Of a stretch of DNA of 20,241 bases, positions 150-6,137 are shown in pieces. The notes under the pieces were generated by a model. It had not been told where the DNA came from, searched no databases, and worked only from the letters and a program-made list of their open reading frames with translations. The position numbers and the translations under genes are program-made. Numbering within the stretch: position 1 is the stretch's first letter; each line of letters begins with the position of its first letter. Origin of the DNA: a virus; the IMG/VR virus record IMGVR_UViG_3300047374_000260, positions 1 to 20,241 of that record; one strand, given 5' to 3'.

Positions 150-1391
150 GTGACATCAATCACTTCCTTAGTTGGTGACCATAAAAACGCCAGAAGACGC
201 ACAGACCGCTCTTCTCAGCTAATTAAAGAGTCACTCCAAAAATATGGAGCTGCTCGCTCCATCGTTATTGACGAAGAAAATCGAATCCTTGCCGGTAACG
301 GCACCATCGAAGGTGCTAAAGCCGCTGGCATTAAAAATGTCCGCGTCATCGAAACTGATGGCTCTGAAGTAATCGCCGTCCGCCGCACTGGCCTTTCAGA
401 AGACGAAAAAGTTGGCCTAGCCCTAGCTGATAACCGCACCGCAGACCTATCCGAATGGGATCAGGAGATGCTGCATCAGCTCAGCGAAGAGCACGATATC
501 TCCGACTGGTTCACACAAGAAGACCTTGACGAACTCCTCAGCGTCGACAAGCTCGACCCCGCTGAAGGCAACACTGATCCTGACGACGTACCTGAAACAC
601 CAGAGGATCCAACAACAAAACCCGGTGATCTATGGATCCTTGGCAACCATCGCCTGCTCTGCGGTGATAGCACCAACCCGCAGCACGTTGAACGACTGAT
701 GGATGGCAAGAAGGCTGACATGGTCTTCACCGACCCGCCTTATGGCATGTTTCTTGACACAGATTGGTCAGGCATTCAAGGCAGCATGAAGTCAATGGGT
801 GCCAAGGCAGGCACTTCTGGTAATAAATACAAAAAAGTAATAGGCGACCACGACGATTTCACCCCAGAGCTGATACATACAATCTTTGCCTCTTTCAGTT
901 ACTGCAAAGAGATTTTTGTCTGGGGCGCTGATTATTTTGCAGAGCTGCTCCCTAACAAAAACGATGGCTCATGGCTTGTCTGGGACAAACGGAAAGAATC
1001 TCAAGCGGAAGCCATCGGCGCTGAATTTGAACTGTGTTGGTCTAAATCCAAACATAAAAGGCGAATGCTCCGTCACGATTGGTTTGGGTTCCTTTCTTCC
1101 TCAAATCCAACAGAAGCTCGTAATCGCGTTCATCCAACTCAAAAGCCCACGTCACTCTGTGAAGACGTAATGAGTCAGTGGGGGGAAACAGGTGACATCG
1201 TTGCCGATCTCTACGGCGGATCAGGCACCACGCTTATCGCCTGCGAAAAGACCTCTCGTCACTGCCGAATGATGGAACTAGACCCCGCCTATTGCGATGT
1301 AATAGTCAAGCGCTGGGAAGACTTCACCGGTAACACCGCCGTCTGTGAACCATCGGCTGAGCACTTTCAAGAGGAACAGGAGGTCGCCTGA
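150..1391 (+). CDS. ParB-like / DNA adenine methyltransferase fusion
   Basis: A 413-residue fusion protein. Residues about 3-115 resemble the ParB/sulfiredoxin-like domain that often precedes phage methyltransferases, with AGNGTIEGA (48-56) at the site of the usual GxRR-type motif. An acidic, Pro-rich linker (about 135-158) follows. The methyltransferase then starts at GDLWILGNHRLLCGDS; it has catalytic motif IV DPPY at 195-198, and the AdoMet-binding motif I DLYGGSGTT at 353-361. Motif IV before motif I is the beta-class order, as in N6-adenine or N4-cytosine enzymes; DPPY with this ParB fusion most often goes with adenine. It probably methylates phage DNA to protect it from host nucleases or to mark it near packaging. 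The start is GTG with no clear Shine-Dalgarno sequence. The stop overlaps the next ATG by one base. Target sequence unknown. Confidence 0.93.
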   Translation: MTSITSLVGDHKNARRRTDRSSQLIKESLQKYGAARSIVIDEENRILAGNGTIEGAKAAGIKNVRVIETDGSEVIAVRRTGLSEDEKVGLALADNRTADLSEWDQEMLHQLSEEHDISDWFTQEDLDELLSVDKLDPAEGNTDPDDVPETPEDPTTKPGDLWILGNHRLLCGDSTNPQHVERLMDGKKADMVFTDPPYGMFLDTDWSGIQGSMKSMGAKAGTSGNKYKKVIGDHDDFTPELIHTIFASFSYCKEIFVWGADYFAELLPNKNDGSWLVWDKRKESQAEAIGAEFELCWSKSKHKRRMLRHDWFGFLSSSNPTEARNRVHPTQKPTSLCEDVMSQWGETGDIVADLYGGSGTTLIACEKTSRHCRMMELDPAYCDVIVKRWEDFTGNTAVCEPSAEHFQEEQEVA

Positions 1392-1729
1392 TGGCTGACA
1401 AAAAGAAGCCGAAAGCAAAATCAACCAACGCTGAAAAGGACATGCGGATCAACCGCTTTGCTCGCCTTCTCAGCAATGGCGGCACGCGCTCAGACTGTCT
1501 GCAATACGGCGCAAGCCAGTGGGGGCTTAGCGTTCGCCAGTCTGATCAATACATCCGCTGGGCACGGGATGTCTTAAAAGACGACTGGGAGATCGATCGC
1601 CGTACCTTCACCGCAGAGCTTTTGTCACAGCTCGCTTCCCTTCAGAAAGAGTCTCGCAAGAATGGACAGGGGCATATTGCCCTTGGTTGCATTAACTCAG
1701 CCGCCAAACTTGCTCAGCTAATCCAATGA
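1391..1729 (+). CDS. terS: Terminase small subunit (probable)
   Basis: A 112-residue basic protein with a Lys-rich N-terminus and a helix-turn-helix-like stretch (about residues 24-62, including DCLQYGASQWGLSVRQSDQYIR). A C-terminal helical hairpin (about 73-110) resembles the oligomerisation part of small terminases. The expected role is to recognise the viral packaging site as a ring and hand DNA to TerL. The call rests on the HTH, the size and the position ahead of TerL, with one small gene between. The start is well supported: AGGAGG lies just upstream and the ATG overlaps the preceding TGA (TGATG). It ends in an ATGA overlap with the next gene, so the four genes are probably one translationally coupled operon. 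Confidence 0.72.
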   Translation: MADKKKPKAKSTNAEKDMRINRFARLLSNGGTRSDCLQYGASQWGLSVRQSDQYIRWARDVLKDDWEIDRRTFTAELLSQLASLQKESRKNGQGHIALGCINSAAKLAQLIQ

Positions 1730-1908
1730 CAACTGAACTTACCAACCTTCCTTGTGGCACTGTGCAGATCAAGGTCTGTGAGGACAACATTTGCGCTACA
1801 GGTTGGGTCAGCTCACATCACTTGGTCGGCACCAAAGAGACTCAGCTAAAGGAGTCGCTTAGGCGGGCGGCTTACAACTCATTTATTGAGGAGAAGGCTG
1901 CCGGATGA
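1726..1908 (+). CDS. Small protein between the terminase genes
   Basis: A 60-residue protein I do not recognise. It looks beta-rich at the N-terminus (GTVQIKVCEDNICATGWV) and helical at the C-terminus (KESLRRAAYNSFIEEK). Two cysteines lie five residues apart (CEDNIC). It overlaps the upstream stop by ATGA and its own stop overlaps the TerL ATG in the same way, so it is locked between the two terminase genes and probably translated by coupling. Position suggests a packaging accessory, but nothing in the sequence proves that. It is more likely real than chance because both overlaps are the compact kind used throughout this phage. Confidence 0.7.
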   Translation: MTTELTNLPCGTVQIKVCEDNICATGWVSSHHLVGTKETQLKESLRRAAYNSFIEEKAAG

Positions 1909-3230
1909 GTCTTTTAGATCGGTGCGCAGGCGGTTCAGTTCTTGATCAACCCGTTGCACAGGTTGCGAAATCAAACCTCGTTCCGTTTGCCACCGATCTA
2001 ATTAGTGGGCTGTCTACACCGCAGTCGGAGGTTTATAGCGATCCTTCACGCTTCAAAATGCTCTGTTCAGGGCGGCGCTTTGGTAAGACGCATCTTTGCT
2101 TGGTTCAGTTGATCGTATGGGCTGCAATGAAGACAGGCAGCCTTAACTGGTACATCGCGCCAACTTATAAATCAGCGAAACAGATTGCCTGGCGTCAGCT
2201 CAAGGCAATGGTGCCATCAGAGCTATTCGCGGCAAAGAACGAGGTCGACTTATCAATCGAGCTGGTCAACGGTTCACGCATCGAATTAAAGGGCGGTGAA
2301 TCAGCTGACAACCTTCGTGGCGCCAGCCTTAGCAATGTCGTGCTCGATGAGGCTGCTTATATCCCCCAGGACGCATGGGAGATGGTCATCAGACCAGCCC
2401 TGGCTGATCAACGGGGTTCTGCTTTCTTTATCAGTACGCCAGCGGGCTACAACCACTTTCACGAGATGTGGGAGCAGGCTGCCGAGCTAGAGGACTGGCG
2501 GACCTTCAGCTACAGCACCATCGAGGGTGGCAACGTCCCTCCAGAAGAGGTCGAGCTAGCCCGACGCACCTTGGATGAGCGGACGTTCAAGCAAGAGTTC
2601 CTGGCCAGCTTCGAGACGTTCTCTGGGAGAGTTTTCCCAGAATTCGACGATGCCAACGTCGATGACGTTCAGGACATGGGCGGGCCAATCCTGGTTGGCC
2701 TCGACTTCAACGTCGGAATCATGGCTGGTGTCATCTGCTCCAAGGTCGGCGACACCCTGCATCAGTGGGACGAGATAGCCGTTAAGAACTCGAACACCGA
2801 CGAGGTAGCGCAGATGCTGCGTCAACGCTTCCCTGACCGCCGAATCATCTGTTATCCCGACCCAACAGGTCGGGCACGTAAGACCTCAGCAGCAGGTGCC
2901 ACTGACCATGGGATCCTGCGCAAGTACGGCTTAGAGGTCGTCGCTCCCAAGAGTCCCTGGTCGGTCAAGGACAGGCTCAACGCCACCAACTGGCTCATCT
3001 GCAACGCTGAGGGACAACGTCGCCTCTTTGTCCATCCGCGCTGCAAGAACACGATCAAGGGTTACCGCAGCGTGACCTACAAGGAAGGGGCCGAAGACTT
3101 CGTCGTTGACAAGGATCCGGGGCTTGAGCACTGGATTGACGGCGCTGGGTACCTAATTCTGAGTGCCATGAATCAGGTCAAACCCTGGACGGTGGGCGCT
3201 GGCAAATCACGCGCTGCACAGGTATGGTGA
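1905..3230 (+). CDS. terL: Terminase large subunit (ATPase and nuclease)
   Basis: A 441-residue packaging motor protein. ATPase domain: Walker A CSGRRFGKT at 54-62, Walker B VVLDEA at 145-150 with catalytic E149, and coupling motif STPAG at 177-181. RNase H-like nuclease domain: first acidic residue D267 in GLDFNVG, second D319 in CYPDPTGRA, third probably D412 in HWIDGAGY. All expected catalytic residues are present, so the protein should be active. Length is normal for the family. It translocates DNA into the prohead and cuts concatemers. The ATG overlaps the previous TGA, with a GGAG-type site upstream. It is the last gene before the mixed-strand island, and a hairpin about 130 bases downstream may end its transcript. 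Confidence 0.97.
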   Translation: MSLLDRCAGGSVLDQPVAQVAKSNLVPFATDLISGLSTPQSEVYSDPSRFKMLCSGRRFGKTHLCLVQLIVWAAMKTGSLNWYIAPTYKSAKQIAWRQLKAMVPSELFAAKNEVDLSIELVNGSRIELKGGESADNLRGASLSNVVLDEAAYIPQDAWEMVIRPALADQRGSAFFISTPAGYNHFHEMWEQAAELEDWRTFSYSTIEGGNVPPEEVELARRTLDERTFKQEFLASFETFSGRVFPEFDDANVDDVQDMGGPILVGLDFNVGIMAGVICSKVGDTLHQWDEIAVKNSNTDEVAQMLRQRFPDRRIICYPDPTGRARKTSAAGATDHGILRKYGLEVVAPKSPWSVKDRLNATNWLICNAEGQRRLFVHPRCKNTIKGYRSVTYKEGAEDFVVDKDPGLEHWIDGAGYLILSAMNQVKPWTVGAGKSRAAQVW

Positions 3231-3330
3231 TTCGGCTTAGAAGTTGTGCAGCAGGCGCATCCCCCGGGGGTTTAAGACGCCCTGTCTCCAGCAACAAACA
3301 CCGCAAGGTGAACCCGATCGATTGCCCTAG

Positions 3331-3383
3331 GGCTCTAACGAAAAGACGGGAGCCTTCAGAGCCGCCTTTACGGGCGGCTTTGT
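3331..3383 (+). terminator. Possible terminator after terL, with an overlapping alternative hairpin
   Basis: AGCCGCC (3360-3366) pairs with GGCGGCT (3373-3379) across a 6-base loop, followed by a short T-rich tail (TTTGT). Upstream, GGCTC (3331-3335) can pair with GAGCC (3350-3354), or as GGCTCT with AGAGCC (3358-3363), which would use up the terminator's left arm. The T tract is weak, so termination strength is uncertain. The stem also lies downstream of the minus-strand HNH gene, but no T run follows on that strand. Confidence 0.45.
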
Positions 3384-3388
3384 CGCGA

Positions 3389-3748
3389 CTAGGGCTTTCT
3401 ATGTCTCACGCCATGGCACTTGTGGCATAGGGGCTCTACTGACCACCAAAGGGAATAATCCTCGTGGTGAAAGTGGCCAGCCTGTGCATTGCAATCGCTG
3501 CACTTAAAGACTGACGCCACAGGCCAGATGTGCTGTTGGTGAACGCGCAATCGCACCAAGTTTCGTGCTGCTTCGTGATCAGCATTTCGACGCTTGGACT
3601 CCACCACTTGCGCGTCACGCTTGGCTTTGTTGCGCTTGCGGTACTCCGCGTAATAGCCAGGATTTGCAGCACGCCAACGGCGATGGCGTTCTCTTGCTGC
3701 TTCTGACCTATTACGGCGCTGTTCGTCCGCAATATCCTTGTAGGGCAT
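3389..3748 (-). CDS. HNH-type endonuclease-like protein
   Basis: A 119-residue, strongly basic protein on the strand opposite to the structural genes. The N-terminal half is Arg/Lys-rich (RRNRSEAARERHRRWRA) and the C-terminus has a zinc-binding HNH-like arrangement: KCSDCNAQAGHFHHEDYS, then EPLCHKCHGVRHRK, i.e. CxxC, a HxHH core and CxxCHxxxH. Such proteins are nicking or cutting enzymes. HNH proteins next to terminases take part in cos cleavage in HK97-like phages; others are free-standing homing endonucleases. Opposite orientation and location in an accessory island fit the homing idea slightly better. ATG start; no clear Shine-Dalgarno. A second minus-strand frame over much of the same bases lacks the motif and looks like a shadow. 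Confidence 0.8.
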   Translation of the reverse strand: MPYKDIADEQRRNRSEAARERHRRWRAANPGYYAEYRKRNKAKRDAQVVESKRRNADHEAARNLVRLRVHQQHIWPVASVFKCSDCNAQAGHFHHEDYSLWWSVEPLCHKCHGVRHRKP

Positions 3749-3815
3749 AACTGGTGACTCAGTTGTGACACGGCCAGGGACTGCAATCCGCTGGCCTCTC
3801 CATTATGTCCTGACG

Positions 3816-3844
3816 TTGCGATAACGCGAGCGGAATGGTAATAT
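3816..3844 (+). promoter_or_regulatory. Candidate sigma70-type promoter for the island's plus-strand genes
   Basis: TTGCGA (3816-3821, 4 of 6 to TTGACA), a 17-base spacer, and TAATAT (3839-3844, 4 of 6 to TATAAT). The predicted start would be near 3851, just ahead of the 58-codon ORF at 3869 and the HTH gene at 4049. It lies in the 120-base gap upstream of both this pair and the divergent HNH gene. Assigned by eye only. Confidence 0.4.
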
Positions 3845-3868
3845 GGTGTTGTCGCGAACGACGCGGCT

Positions 3869-4045
3869 GTGAATCCGGTTACGGCGGTCGGACAGATCCC
3901 GAGCCCGCCACCGGTGAAGAATCAGCTCCGCGAGACGCCGCGACACCACGCACCTAGACAACCGATCACGAGAGTCACAGAGGGGCCTCTGGGGGACGCT
4001 GGCCTGGAACCGACGGCCCGTCTCCCGAATTACTTACCCCTCTGA
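3869..4045 (+). CDS. Small proline-rich protein (hypothetical)
   Basis: A 58-codon frame from GTG at 3869 to TGA at 4043-4045. The product begins NPVTAVGQIPSPPPVKNQLR and ends LEPTARLPNYLPL; it is Pro- and Arg-rich, with no transmembrane segment. The frame is closed upstream by a TAA at 3838-3840, with GTG the only usual start. It ends three bases before the ATG of the HTH gene and lies just downstream of a promoter-like sequence, so the two could share a transcript. I do not recognise it. The region is GC-rich, which inflates open frames, so the alternative is a non-coding leader for the HTH gene. Confidence 0.42.
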   Translation: MNPVTAVGQIPSPPPVKNQLRETPRHHAPRQPITRVTEGPLGDAGLEPTARLPNYLPL

Positions 4046-4048
4046 ACA

Positions 4049-4240
4049 ATGACCACCATTACCTGCCTGGTAGCGACGGTGCTGGCCCTGATCACCATCC
4101 CCCTGGTGATCCTGTGGCGCATGTCGCTCACCAAACAACAGAACACCCGACGGCTCGCGTCCAAAGGCTGGACGTGGACACGCATCGGTAATCGTTATGG
4201 CGTCCATCGAACCACAGTGAGGCGCTGGGCTATGGCGTAA
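4049..4240 (+). CDS. Membrane-anchored helix-turn-helix microprotein
   Basis: A 63-residue protein with two clear parts. Residues about 3-24 (TCLVATVLALITIPLVILW) form one hydrophobic transmembrane segment. Residues about 34-63 (RRLASKGWTWTRIGNRYGVHRTTVRRWAMA, split as RRLASKGWTWTR and IGNRYGVHRTTVRRW) are a helix-turn-helix with a good recognition helix (VHRTTVRRW) like resolvase or transposase HTH domains. The combination suggests a DNA-binding domain held at a membrane, on the cytoplasmic side by the positive-inside rule (WRMSLTKQQNTRR follows the segment). The ATG lies 3 bases after the stop of the preceding small ORF. Target and role are unknown; it could regulate the island or tether phage DNA to the membrane. 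It converges on the nblA-like gene. Confidence 0.68.
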   Translation: MTTITCLVATVLALITIPLVILWRMSLTKQQNTRRLASKGWTWTRIGNRYGVHRTTVRRWAMA

Positions 4241-4265
4241 TCACAACACCCCCTCTATGGCTCTC

Positions 4266-4292
4266 GCGTACCTGCACTGATGACAGGTACGC
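4266..4292. repeat. Perfect 9-bp inverted repeat between convergent genes
   Basis: GCGTACCTG (4266-4274) and CAGGTACGC (4284-4292) form a perfect 9-bp stem with a 9-base loop, in the 56-base gap between the convergent HTH gene (ends 4240) and nblA-like gene (ends 4297). No T run follows on either strand, so it is not a classic intrinsic terminator. It may stabilise 3' ends, block convergent transcription, or be an operator for a dimeric regulator. Confidence 0.6.
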
Positions 4293-4296
4293 AAGC

Positions 4297-4479
4297 TCAA
4301 CGGCCTGGAGGCAGCTTCCCCGTGTCCCTCAACAGGCTTTCGTACACCTTCCGCTGAGATATCGTCTGGCTAAACAATCGAATGGCAATTTCCTGAAGCG
4401 TGTATAAATCGGTTGTTCTCATAATCTGCATCTCAAACTTCCTCAATTCAAATTCGCGGGCGAGACCGTAGAGATCCAT
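4297..4479 (-). CDS. nblA: NblA-like phycobilisome degradation protein (auxiliary metabolic gene)
   Basis: A 60-residue protein from ATG at 4479. The N-terminus carries the NblA signature LAREFELRKFE (residues 6-16; cellular forms read LSLEQEFxLRxFE), then a loop and a second helix IAIRLFSQTISQRKVYESLLR (31-51), matching the usual LYxQMMxRExxYxxLLK pattern. The size equals cellular NblA (about 55-65 residues). NblA dimers bind phycobiliproteins and recruit Clp protease, dismantling the phycobilisome antenna. A phage copy would release amino acids or change light harvesting during infection. The frame extends eight codons further to a TTG at 4503, but ATG gives the family length; neither has a strong Shine-Dalgarno. 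It sits on the minus strand, divergent from portal by 47 bases, so it probably has its own promoter and expression timing. Confidence 0.85.
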   Translation of the reverse strand: MDLYGLAREFELRKFEMQIMRTTDLYTLQEIAIRLFSQTISQRKVYESLLRDTGKLPPGR

Positions 4480-4526
4480 AAAAAACGCGCGATTTAGAAT
4501 CAAGCTTATTCATGGTGAGATAGGCC

Positions 4527-6137
4527 GTGCCAGACAATCGCGCATATCCGTCTGGAATTTATGGCCCTGGCTATGGCCCACCTGATGACTTAGCGACAAT
4601 GGATCGCGATGCCGCAGCGGGTAATGACCCGTCGTGGTTGTCTGGCCCATACCTGGAGATGTCTGAGCGTTGGCAGCCGATGCTCGTATGCATGGGCGGC
4701 ACTCAAGCATTCCGTGAGAATGCTGGCGCTTTATTGCCAATCGAACCCAAAGAAGACGAAGCAGCGTGGAAGCGACGGGTTAGTCATGCTGTCCTGTCAC
4801 CCTTCACGATGCGCATTGCTGACCAGGCCGCTGGCTTGATCATGCGAAAGCCAATTCAACTGGAACCGCAGGAAGAGGGCGGTGAGGTTGATGAATACTG
4901 GTCAGAGTGGATTAAGGACGTCGACGGCTATGGAACTGACCTTGATGCTTTTGCTCGTCGTGTTGTCCTTAACTCTTTACTTCTCGGACACAGCGCAGTC
5001 CTGGTTGATTTTCCAAGTACGGAACCTGCGGAAAACCTTCTCCAGGAACGTCAGCTGGGTTTGCGGCCTTATTTCCTGGAAGTACGGGCGGATCAAATAC
5101 TGGGCTGGCGTAAGGAAGCGGACTCGCCGCTTGCGCCAATCAATCAAATAAGGATTAGCGAGTACGTCACTGAAGCCGTCGGCATGTTTGGTGACAAGGC
5201 CGTTCACCAAATCAGAGTCCTTGAACGTGGGGCCTGGTCAATCTGGCGTAAGGGTGAAGACGGCTGGGCCCTGTACCAACAGGGATCCACCTCTTTGCCT
5301 GTTATTCCCCTGGCGGTCACTTACAGCAACAAAGTGAGTGAGCTATTGAGCACTCCGCCGCTGCTACCGCTGGCAAACCTCAACATTCTCCACGCCCAAC
5401 GGCAGGCAGATTTGCAGCACGCTCTCCACGTTGCTGCTCTCCCCGTTATGTACCTCAAGGCGTATGAGGACACGGATAACGAGATCGCGTTGTCTGCCAA
5501 TAGCGCCATTTTGCTGCCTGAAAACGGTGAGGTTGGCTATGCCGAACCAGCCAGCAGCGCTTTCGACAGTCAGCAGAACTTCATCACCGAGATGGAGAAC
5601 CAGATGCGCAACCTGGGCATCTCAACCCTGTTCAGCCAGACCTACGTCGGCGAGACAGCAGAGGCCAAGGCAATGGATCGCAGTGATAGCGATTCAATGC
5701 TGTCAGTGGTGTCTCAAGACCTTGAGAACGCTTTGCAAAATGCCATTGATATGGCTGCAACGTATGTCGGCATTGAAGCCCCGAAGGTTTGCGTCAGCCG
5801 TGACTTTGACCTGCAAAAGCTGGATGGCGCCCAGGTTGGCCAATACATGAGCATGTGGACTCAAGGGGCGATTACGCATCAGACCCTGCTGGAAATTTTG
5901 TCCCGTGGTGAAATCCTTCCTGAGATTGATGTTGAGTCGGAAATTGAATTGATTGAGCAGGAAAAACTCAAGGGCCTTGAACTCCAGGCCGAGCTTGGTT
6001 TACCTGGCCCTGAAGACGAAGAAAGTGAAGAGGAGGATGCTGCAGAAGCTAATTCCGACGGCGACCAAGAGTCCGAAACTCCACAGGAAAGGGCCCGTAG
6101 GCTACGGGAACAATCTGACGAAGAAGACGACGAATGA
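4527..6137 (+). CDS. Portal protein (DUF4055-type)
   Basis: A 536-residue protein. The N-terminal half, with SWLSGPYLEMSERW, AFRENAGALLP and HAVLSPFTMRIADQAAGLIMRKP, is characteristic of the DUF4055 portal family. A long central region (HAQRQADLQHALHVAALPV) precedes the helical C-terminal part (NFITEMENQMRNLG, MLSVVSQDLENAL). The tail (about 495-536) is extremely acidic (EDEESEEEDAAE). Portals form the dodecameric ring through which DNA enters and leaves the head and to which TerL and the connectors bind. The start is GTG, since the ATG at 4512 hits a stop after two codons; GGTGAGATAGG upstream is a weak ribosome site. Its last codons overlap the next small gene. It follows the accessory island rather than TerL directly. 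Confidence 0.93.
   Translation: MPDNRAYPSGIYGPGYGPPDDLATMDRDAAAGNDPSWLSGPYLEMSERWQPMLVCMGGTQAFRENAGALLPIEPKEDEAAWKRRVSHAVLSPFTMRIADQAAGLIMRKPIQLEPQEEGGEVDEYWSEWIKDVDGYGTDLDAFARRVVLNSLLLGHSAVLVDFPSTEPAENLLQERQLGLRPYFLEVRADQILGWRKEADSPLAPINQIRISEYVTEAVGMFGDKAVHQIRVLERGAWSIWRKGEDGWALYQQGSTSLPVIPLAVTYSNKVSELLSTPPLLPLANLNILHAQRQADLQHALHVAALPVMYLKAYEDTDNEIALSANSAILLPENGEVGYAEPASSAFDSQQNFITEMENQMRNLGISTLFSQTYVGETAEAKAMDRSDSDSMLSVVSQDLENALQNAIDMAATYVGIEAPKVCVSRDFDLQKLDGAQVGQYMSMWTQGAITHQTLLEILSRGEILPEIDVESEIELIEQEKLKGLELQAELGLPGPEDEESEEEDAAEANSDGDQESETPQERARRLREQSDEEDDE

Follow-up and report, generated by a model that had tools for sequence, protein, structure and literature searches.

A probable diverged NblA encoded opposite the portal gene of an S-2L-related siphovirus

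The window analysed here (the whole stretch of DNA, a 20,241-base IMG/VR virus record) carries terL, portal, major capsid and tape-measure genes and, on the minus strand just upstream of portal, a short gene, P0001. P0001 very likely (probability about 0.83) encodes a diverged phage NblA, a ClpC adaptor that would trigger breakdown of the phycobilisomes, the light-harvesting antennae, in infected cyanobacteria, an activity proposed by analogy with known NblA systems. In these, NblA acts as an adaptor of ClpC and brings it phycobilisome proteins to degrade (PMC7966870), with an N-terminal motif for ClpC and a C-terminal motif for phycobiliproteins (PMC4103541). Phage copies of nblA have been reported to be expressed and accompanied by phycobilin loss (PMC9602691, PMC5780444). 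The features of the window to which the text refers are as follows.

4297-4479, minus strand: nblA (P0001), ATG at 4479, 60 amino acids, MDLYGLAREFELRKFEMQIMRTTDLYTLQEIAIRLFSQTISQRKVYESLLRDTGKLPPGR
1905-3230, plus strand: terL (terminase large subunit), phrog_2 at E 2e-45; nearest named relative Cyanophage S-2L, 50%
4527-6137, plus strand: portal, phrog_145 at E 3.3e-100; conserved head-to-head partner of nblA
3389-3748, minus strand (that of nblA): HNH-like endonuclease ORF between terL and portal, phrog_2340 at E 2e-7
4049-4240, plus strand: 63-amino-acid ORF, hydrophobic in an N-terminal segment and bearing an HTH at the C-terminus; a neighbour of nblA, joint action being only hypothetical
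1726-1908, plus strand: 60-amino-acid ORF, 72-76% nucleotide identity to two CsoS2-bearing picocyanobacterial genomes; used for the host assignment
4480-4526, unstranded: divergent intergenic region of nblA and portal, 47 bp between the two starts

An earlier note on this DNA had placed a minus-strand ORF at 4297-4479 between terL and portal, within the structural region of a siphovirus. Its coordinates are exact, the flanking genes are identified by phrog_2 and phrog_145, and the setting is supported. The ORF does lie between terL and portal but is not directly adjacent to terL, since the HNH-like ORF (minus strand) and the 63-amino-acid ORF (plus strand) intervene. Its orientation against the late genes also stands and is conserved in relatives; the early expression suggested from that orientation is unsupported: no signal for it was seen, and a promoter scan of 3200-4800 returned no sigma-70-like site.

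Relatives of the gene were found on five other phage contigs (L001, L003, L029, L030/L036 and L039; 64-76% amino-acid identity), in every case just upstream of portal and on the strand opposite to it, as in the window. Pairwise dN ranges from 0.11 to 0.41 and dS from 1.05 to 2.3 where computable, and is otherwise saturated. In all pairs that allow the computation dN lies far below dS, which shows purifying selection on the minus-strand protein. The ORF is intact on six contigs, and P0001 is a genuine gene, beyond chance. The normal NblA length earlier ascribed to its product is a fair description, members of the phage clade having about 58-60 amino acids and cellular genes about 60-66.

Taken alone, P0001 matched no family in Pfam (E<=10), PHROG or NCBIfam, and tblastn against phages gave no match. 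The latter result is not counterevidence, because a Nostoc NblA tblastn query likewise missed known phage nblA genes. No close cellular relative was found in about 85,000 genomes, and the sole match in a sequence search of the PDB was NblA itself (1ojh), collinear over residues 5-56 at E 0.45. The HMM check proposed for the NblA assignment thus formally goes against it when the single sequence is used, and is overturned only through the profiles of its relatives. PF04485 is the best family for four of the five relatives (E 2.5e-4 to 1.4e-3, 19.4-21.9 bits, profile positions 7-49 of 50), the one from L039 having no PF04485 match. The curated 25-bit cut-off is not reached by the clade, whose best score is 21.9 bits; this is read as a sensitivity limit of PF04485 because the profile-level tests are decisive. 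By Pfam's rule the protein is strictly a divergent NblA homologue and not a strict PF04485 member.

Homology was assessed with a profile (A3) whose sole input was the six phage proteins, searched against 291 whole Cyanobacteriia genomes; PF04485 was searched against 145 of that class. The A3 profile finds cellular nblA, with a best E of 2.5e-6. In genomes searched with both profiles, 55 of 57 A3 matches at E<0.01 overlap a place defined as nblA by PF04485, and the best 30 A3 loci are textbook NblA without exception (30/30). Across the loci examined, all nblA ORFs (63/63) were recovered at E<0.01 and nothing else was, and on these same loci neither the reversed A3 profile nor any of 40 column-shuffled profiles produced a match. 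A reciprocal profile, made from eleven cellular NblAs and the NblA of Ma-LMM01 and PaV-LD, placed the window clade at the top of 7,748 six-frame phage ORFs (window ORF E 6.4e-4), and hhalign of the clade with NblA, spanning 55 columns with 22% identity, gave 95.7%. A profile of the window clade with its same-slot relatives (A6) also recovers the gene annotated nblA in phage S-SCSM1, as well as Ma-LMM01 nblA. By these sequence comparisons the clade and cellular NblA share common ancestry; the A3 genome search, reciprocal search, hhalign and controls show the earlier identification as NblA to be correct in kind.

Cyanophage S-2L is the closest named relative of both terL (50%) and portal (36%), and marine cyanosiphovirus relatives were also found; on protein similarity the carrier is an S-2L-related siphovirus. 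Unlike in the window, terL and portal are adjacent in S-2L, and its genome gave no PF04485 or A6 match. In contigs L001, L030, L038, L039, L040 and L042, terL is swapped for a version of ~26% identity (roughly 24-28%), and portal and the minus-strand ORF upstream of it are retained, in several cases as the nblA-portal pair itself. This terL replacement is a modular exchange at the packaging genes.

In other relatives the place upstream of portal is taken by a small minus-strand ORF that has diverged further, termed Type B. When a GTG start is read, four of these begin with [VM]DR[YF], like the window type. Four Type B proteins reach 20-22 bits with A3, the L009-like ones 0.5 bits; Pfam does not recognise Type B, and its own profile finds no cellular nblA. 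Despite the shared slot, the DR[YF] start and the A3 scores, Type B was rejected as independent proof of NblA because its profile alone misses cellular nblA, and we call it a same-slot relative of the window nblA, function unproven. Between nblA and portal, 8 of 10 aligned loci, diverged Type B loci among them, carry an identical TTAGAATCA (plus strand, window 4494-4502), which is a candidate regulatory element. A minus-strand 60-amino-acid ORF in the same interval of phage S-H1 was considered as an nblA and rejected, its sequence being unrelated. A 50-amino-acid Lys-rich ORF (MAAKRGLYANINAKKKRGGKPRKPGSKGAP...KKPKKKK) is conserved beside Type B between terL and portal in L009-L012, L018, L027, L038 and L040.

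Two small cyanobacterial genomes match the gene at 1726-1908 with 72-76% DNA identity. CsoS2, a protein of the alpha-carboxysome and, within the cyanobacteria, a marker of picocyanobacteria, is present in those two and in six others with weaker DNA matches to the window. The host is therefore probably a picocyanobacterium, with moderate confidence because mainly one shared gene supports it; that gene aside, a search of cyanobacterial genomes for CRISPR-spacer-like links gave DNA matches that were all short or weak, and no tRNA genes were found as a host clue. PF04485 had no match in the eight CsoS2-bearing genomes. The A6 profile matches 1-4 small ORFs in each (L231-L240), and those tested fall into no convincing Pfam or NCBIfam family; they agree with the divergent picocyanobacterial nblA that has been reported (PMC9602691). 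The A6 profile also matches, at E 2.4e-6, a 97-amino-acid ORF of Cyanophage MED4-117 (L212:2186-2479, minus strand). The host of this phage, Prochlorococcus MED4, is without ordinary phycobilisomes.

AlphaFold2, run on the phage-only alignment, places helices at 3-21 and 25-53 (mean pLDDT 86, pTM 0.53), in line with the two-helix fold anticipated earlier, as a predicted and not a solved structure. Foldseek of this model against the PDB returned no useful match, a result that is uninformative because a model of true cellular NblA also matched nothing. The F-x-L-R-x-F core and the helix 2 pattern Y-x-x-L-L-[KR] of cellular NblA are kept. The clade is without LEQ before the core, its helix 2 is not followed by Trp-Gly, its C-terminus reads LPP in place of WGL, and its loop is one residue longer than that of cellular NblA; in the alignment, the longer loop is also seen in the divergent NblA-like ORFs of picocyanobacteria. 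The divergence described in the earlier note is thus real at the loop and C-terminus (the extra residue and LPP), but the segment it took for a middle helix, RTTDLYTLQEI, is the inter-helix loop and the start of helix 2. Since LEQ and Trp-Gly are absent, binding to ClpC or to phycobiliproteins may be changed or lost.

Such changes could mean that P0001 is an NblA derivative put to another use, either bringing ClpC a different target (a defence or regulatory protein of the host) or working as an anti-adaptor against host NblA. The diverged termini are consistent with this, as is the presence, in the same slot of relatives, of the still more diverged Type B, invisible to Pfam and with a profile that misses cellular nblA; the putative hosts also carry several divergent NblA-like ORFs, so the function of the family may have diversified. 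However, the window type retains both core patterns and is the nearest to canonical cellular NblA by profile scores and, weakly, in a tree, and divergent NblAs from marine viral metagenomes still caused phycobilin loss in S. elongatus PCC 7942 (PMC9602691). We consider repurposing unlikely. That P0001 is a functionless remnant of a true nblA in this phage is much less probable: no promoter is recognisable, but dN falls far short of dS in all computable pairs, the ORF is intact on six contigs, and its slot is conserved across the terL replacement. Least probable of all is a short helical protein unrelated to NblA that resembles it through amphipathic helices alone, since, although the single sequence has no family match and short helical proteins do match spuriously (a Type B query, for example, matched designed coiled coils), the blind genome search was specific and collinear for nblA (55/57), shuffled and reversed profiles failed, and the Type B profile, of similar length and from the same slot, missed nblA, so being short and helical is not enough for a family to retrieve nblA.

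If P0001 is a diverged NblA that acts as a ClpC adaptor, it would be made during infection, fold as the predicted helix-loop-helix and presumably dimerise. Its second helix would dock onto phycobiliproteins, which would then be passed to ClpC-ClpP, the protease of the host. In this way the infected cell, probably a picocyanobacterium, would dismantle its phycobilisomes, and the phage would stand to gain amino acids and an altered light input.

In some relatives a second small ORF, Type C (MLSAPGNTPPATLEQRLDLEV...), is found, at L213:1814-2032 (plus strand), G295:C1:19990-20088 (minus strand) and L015:10424-10633 (plus strand); none was found in the window. Its PF04485 matches are weak (E 0.0015 in L213 and 0.033 in G295:C1) and absent in L015. 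L213 is the contig of L029 and G295:C1 that of L039, so two Type C phages also carry window-type nblA, and two NblA-like subunits per phage are possible. We tentatively suggest that one lineage of picocyanobacterial siphoviruses keeps a diverged, portal-partnered NblA with altered ends and loop, acting on hosts that have a diverged multi-gene NblA-like set, and that some sisters (the L029 and L039 contigs) may pair the window type (Type A) with Type C. Such pairing would be comparable to the NblA1/NblA2 heterodimer of Synechocystis named in the title of Baier et al. 2014, as listed in PMC7966870.

Cellular NblA (PF04485; PDB 1ojh) and the window clade are alike in length, collinear helix-loop-helix, core residues and mutual profile matches, and differ in that the clade has only about 22% identity to it and stays below the Pfam cut-off. 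The freshwater phages Ma-LMM01 and PaV-LD likewise bear NblA homologues, but these phages come from other lineages, and their NblAs lie much nearer to the cellular protein, with PF04485 scores of 45-52 bits. The nblA of Ma-LMM01 is expressed, and infected hosts lose their phycobilisomes; PaV-LD NblA is reported to be active (PMC5780444). The NblA of marine cyanophages (S-SCSM1, S-TIM5 and cyanopodoviruses), again in other lineages, is as a group also highly diverged; that of S-SCSM1 is recovered by A6, yet scores only 3.9 bits with A3 alone. Marine cyanophage NblA was reportedly detected by Nadel and colleagues (2019, 2025) using distant-homology methods.

The earlier view that phage copies are known from a few freshwater cyanophages is therefore outdated. 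Podoviruses and myoviruses from marine and estuarine waters are also reported to carry NblA (PMC9602691, where a cyanosiphovirus category appears in a figure legend as well), and an ocean-scale importance of phage NblA is attributed to Nadel et al. 2025 (Nature 648:434) in PMC12892361. The window clade is a distinct divergent member of established viral NblA, and not a new kind. Surveys based on Pfam or on single sequences would miss it, because the window gene alone scores nothing; with the six-sequence profile and the portal-adjacent position, genes of this sort can be counted in siphoviruses. The absent C-terminal Trp-Gly also provides a natural variant with which to probe the NblA residues needed for ClpC and phycobiliprotein contacts.

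Two further observations concern the neighbourhood. The 63-amino-acid ORF belongs to a family found near terL in relatives (L006:3162-3344, L007:7934-8119, L008:2331-2516, L019:4220-4492 and L036:2739-2927), its members being 60-63 amino acids long (90 in L019) and, with their hydrophobic segment and HTH, resembling membrane-anchored DNA-binding proteins. At 150-1391 (plus strand) the window encodes a ParB-like domain fused to an N6/N4 DNA methylase (phrog_498, PF01555).
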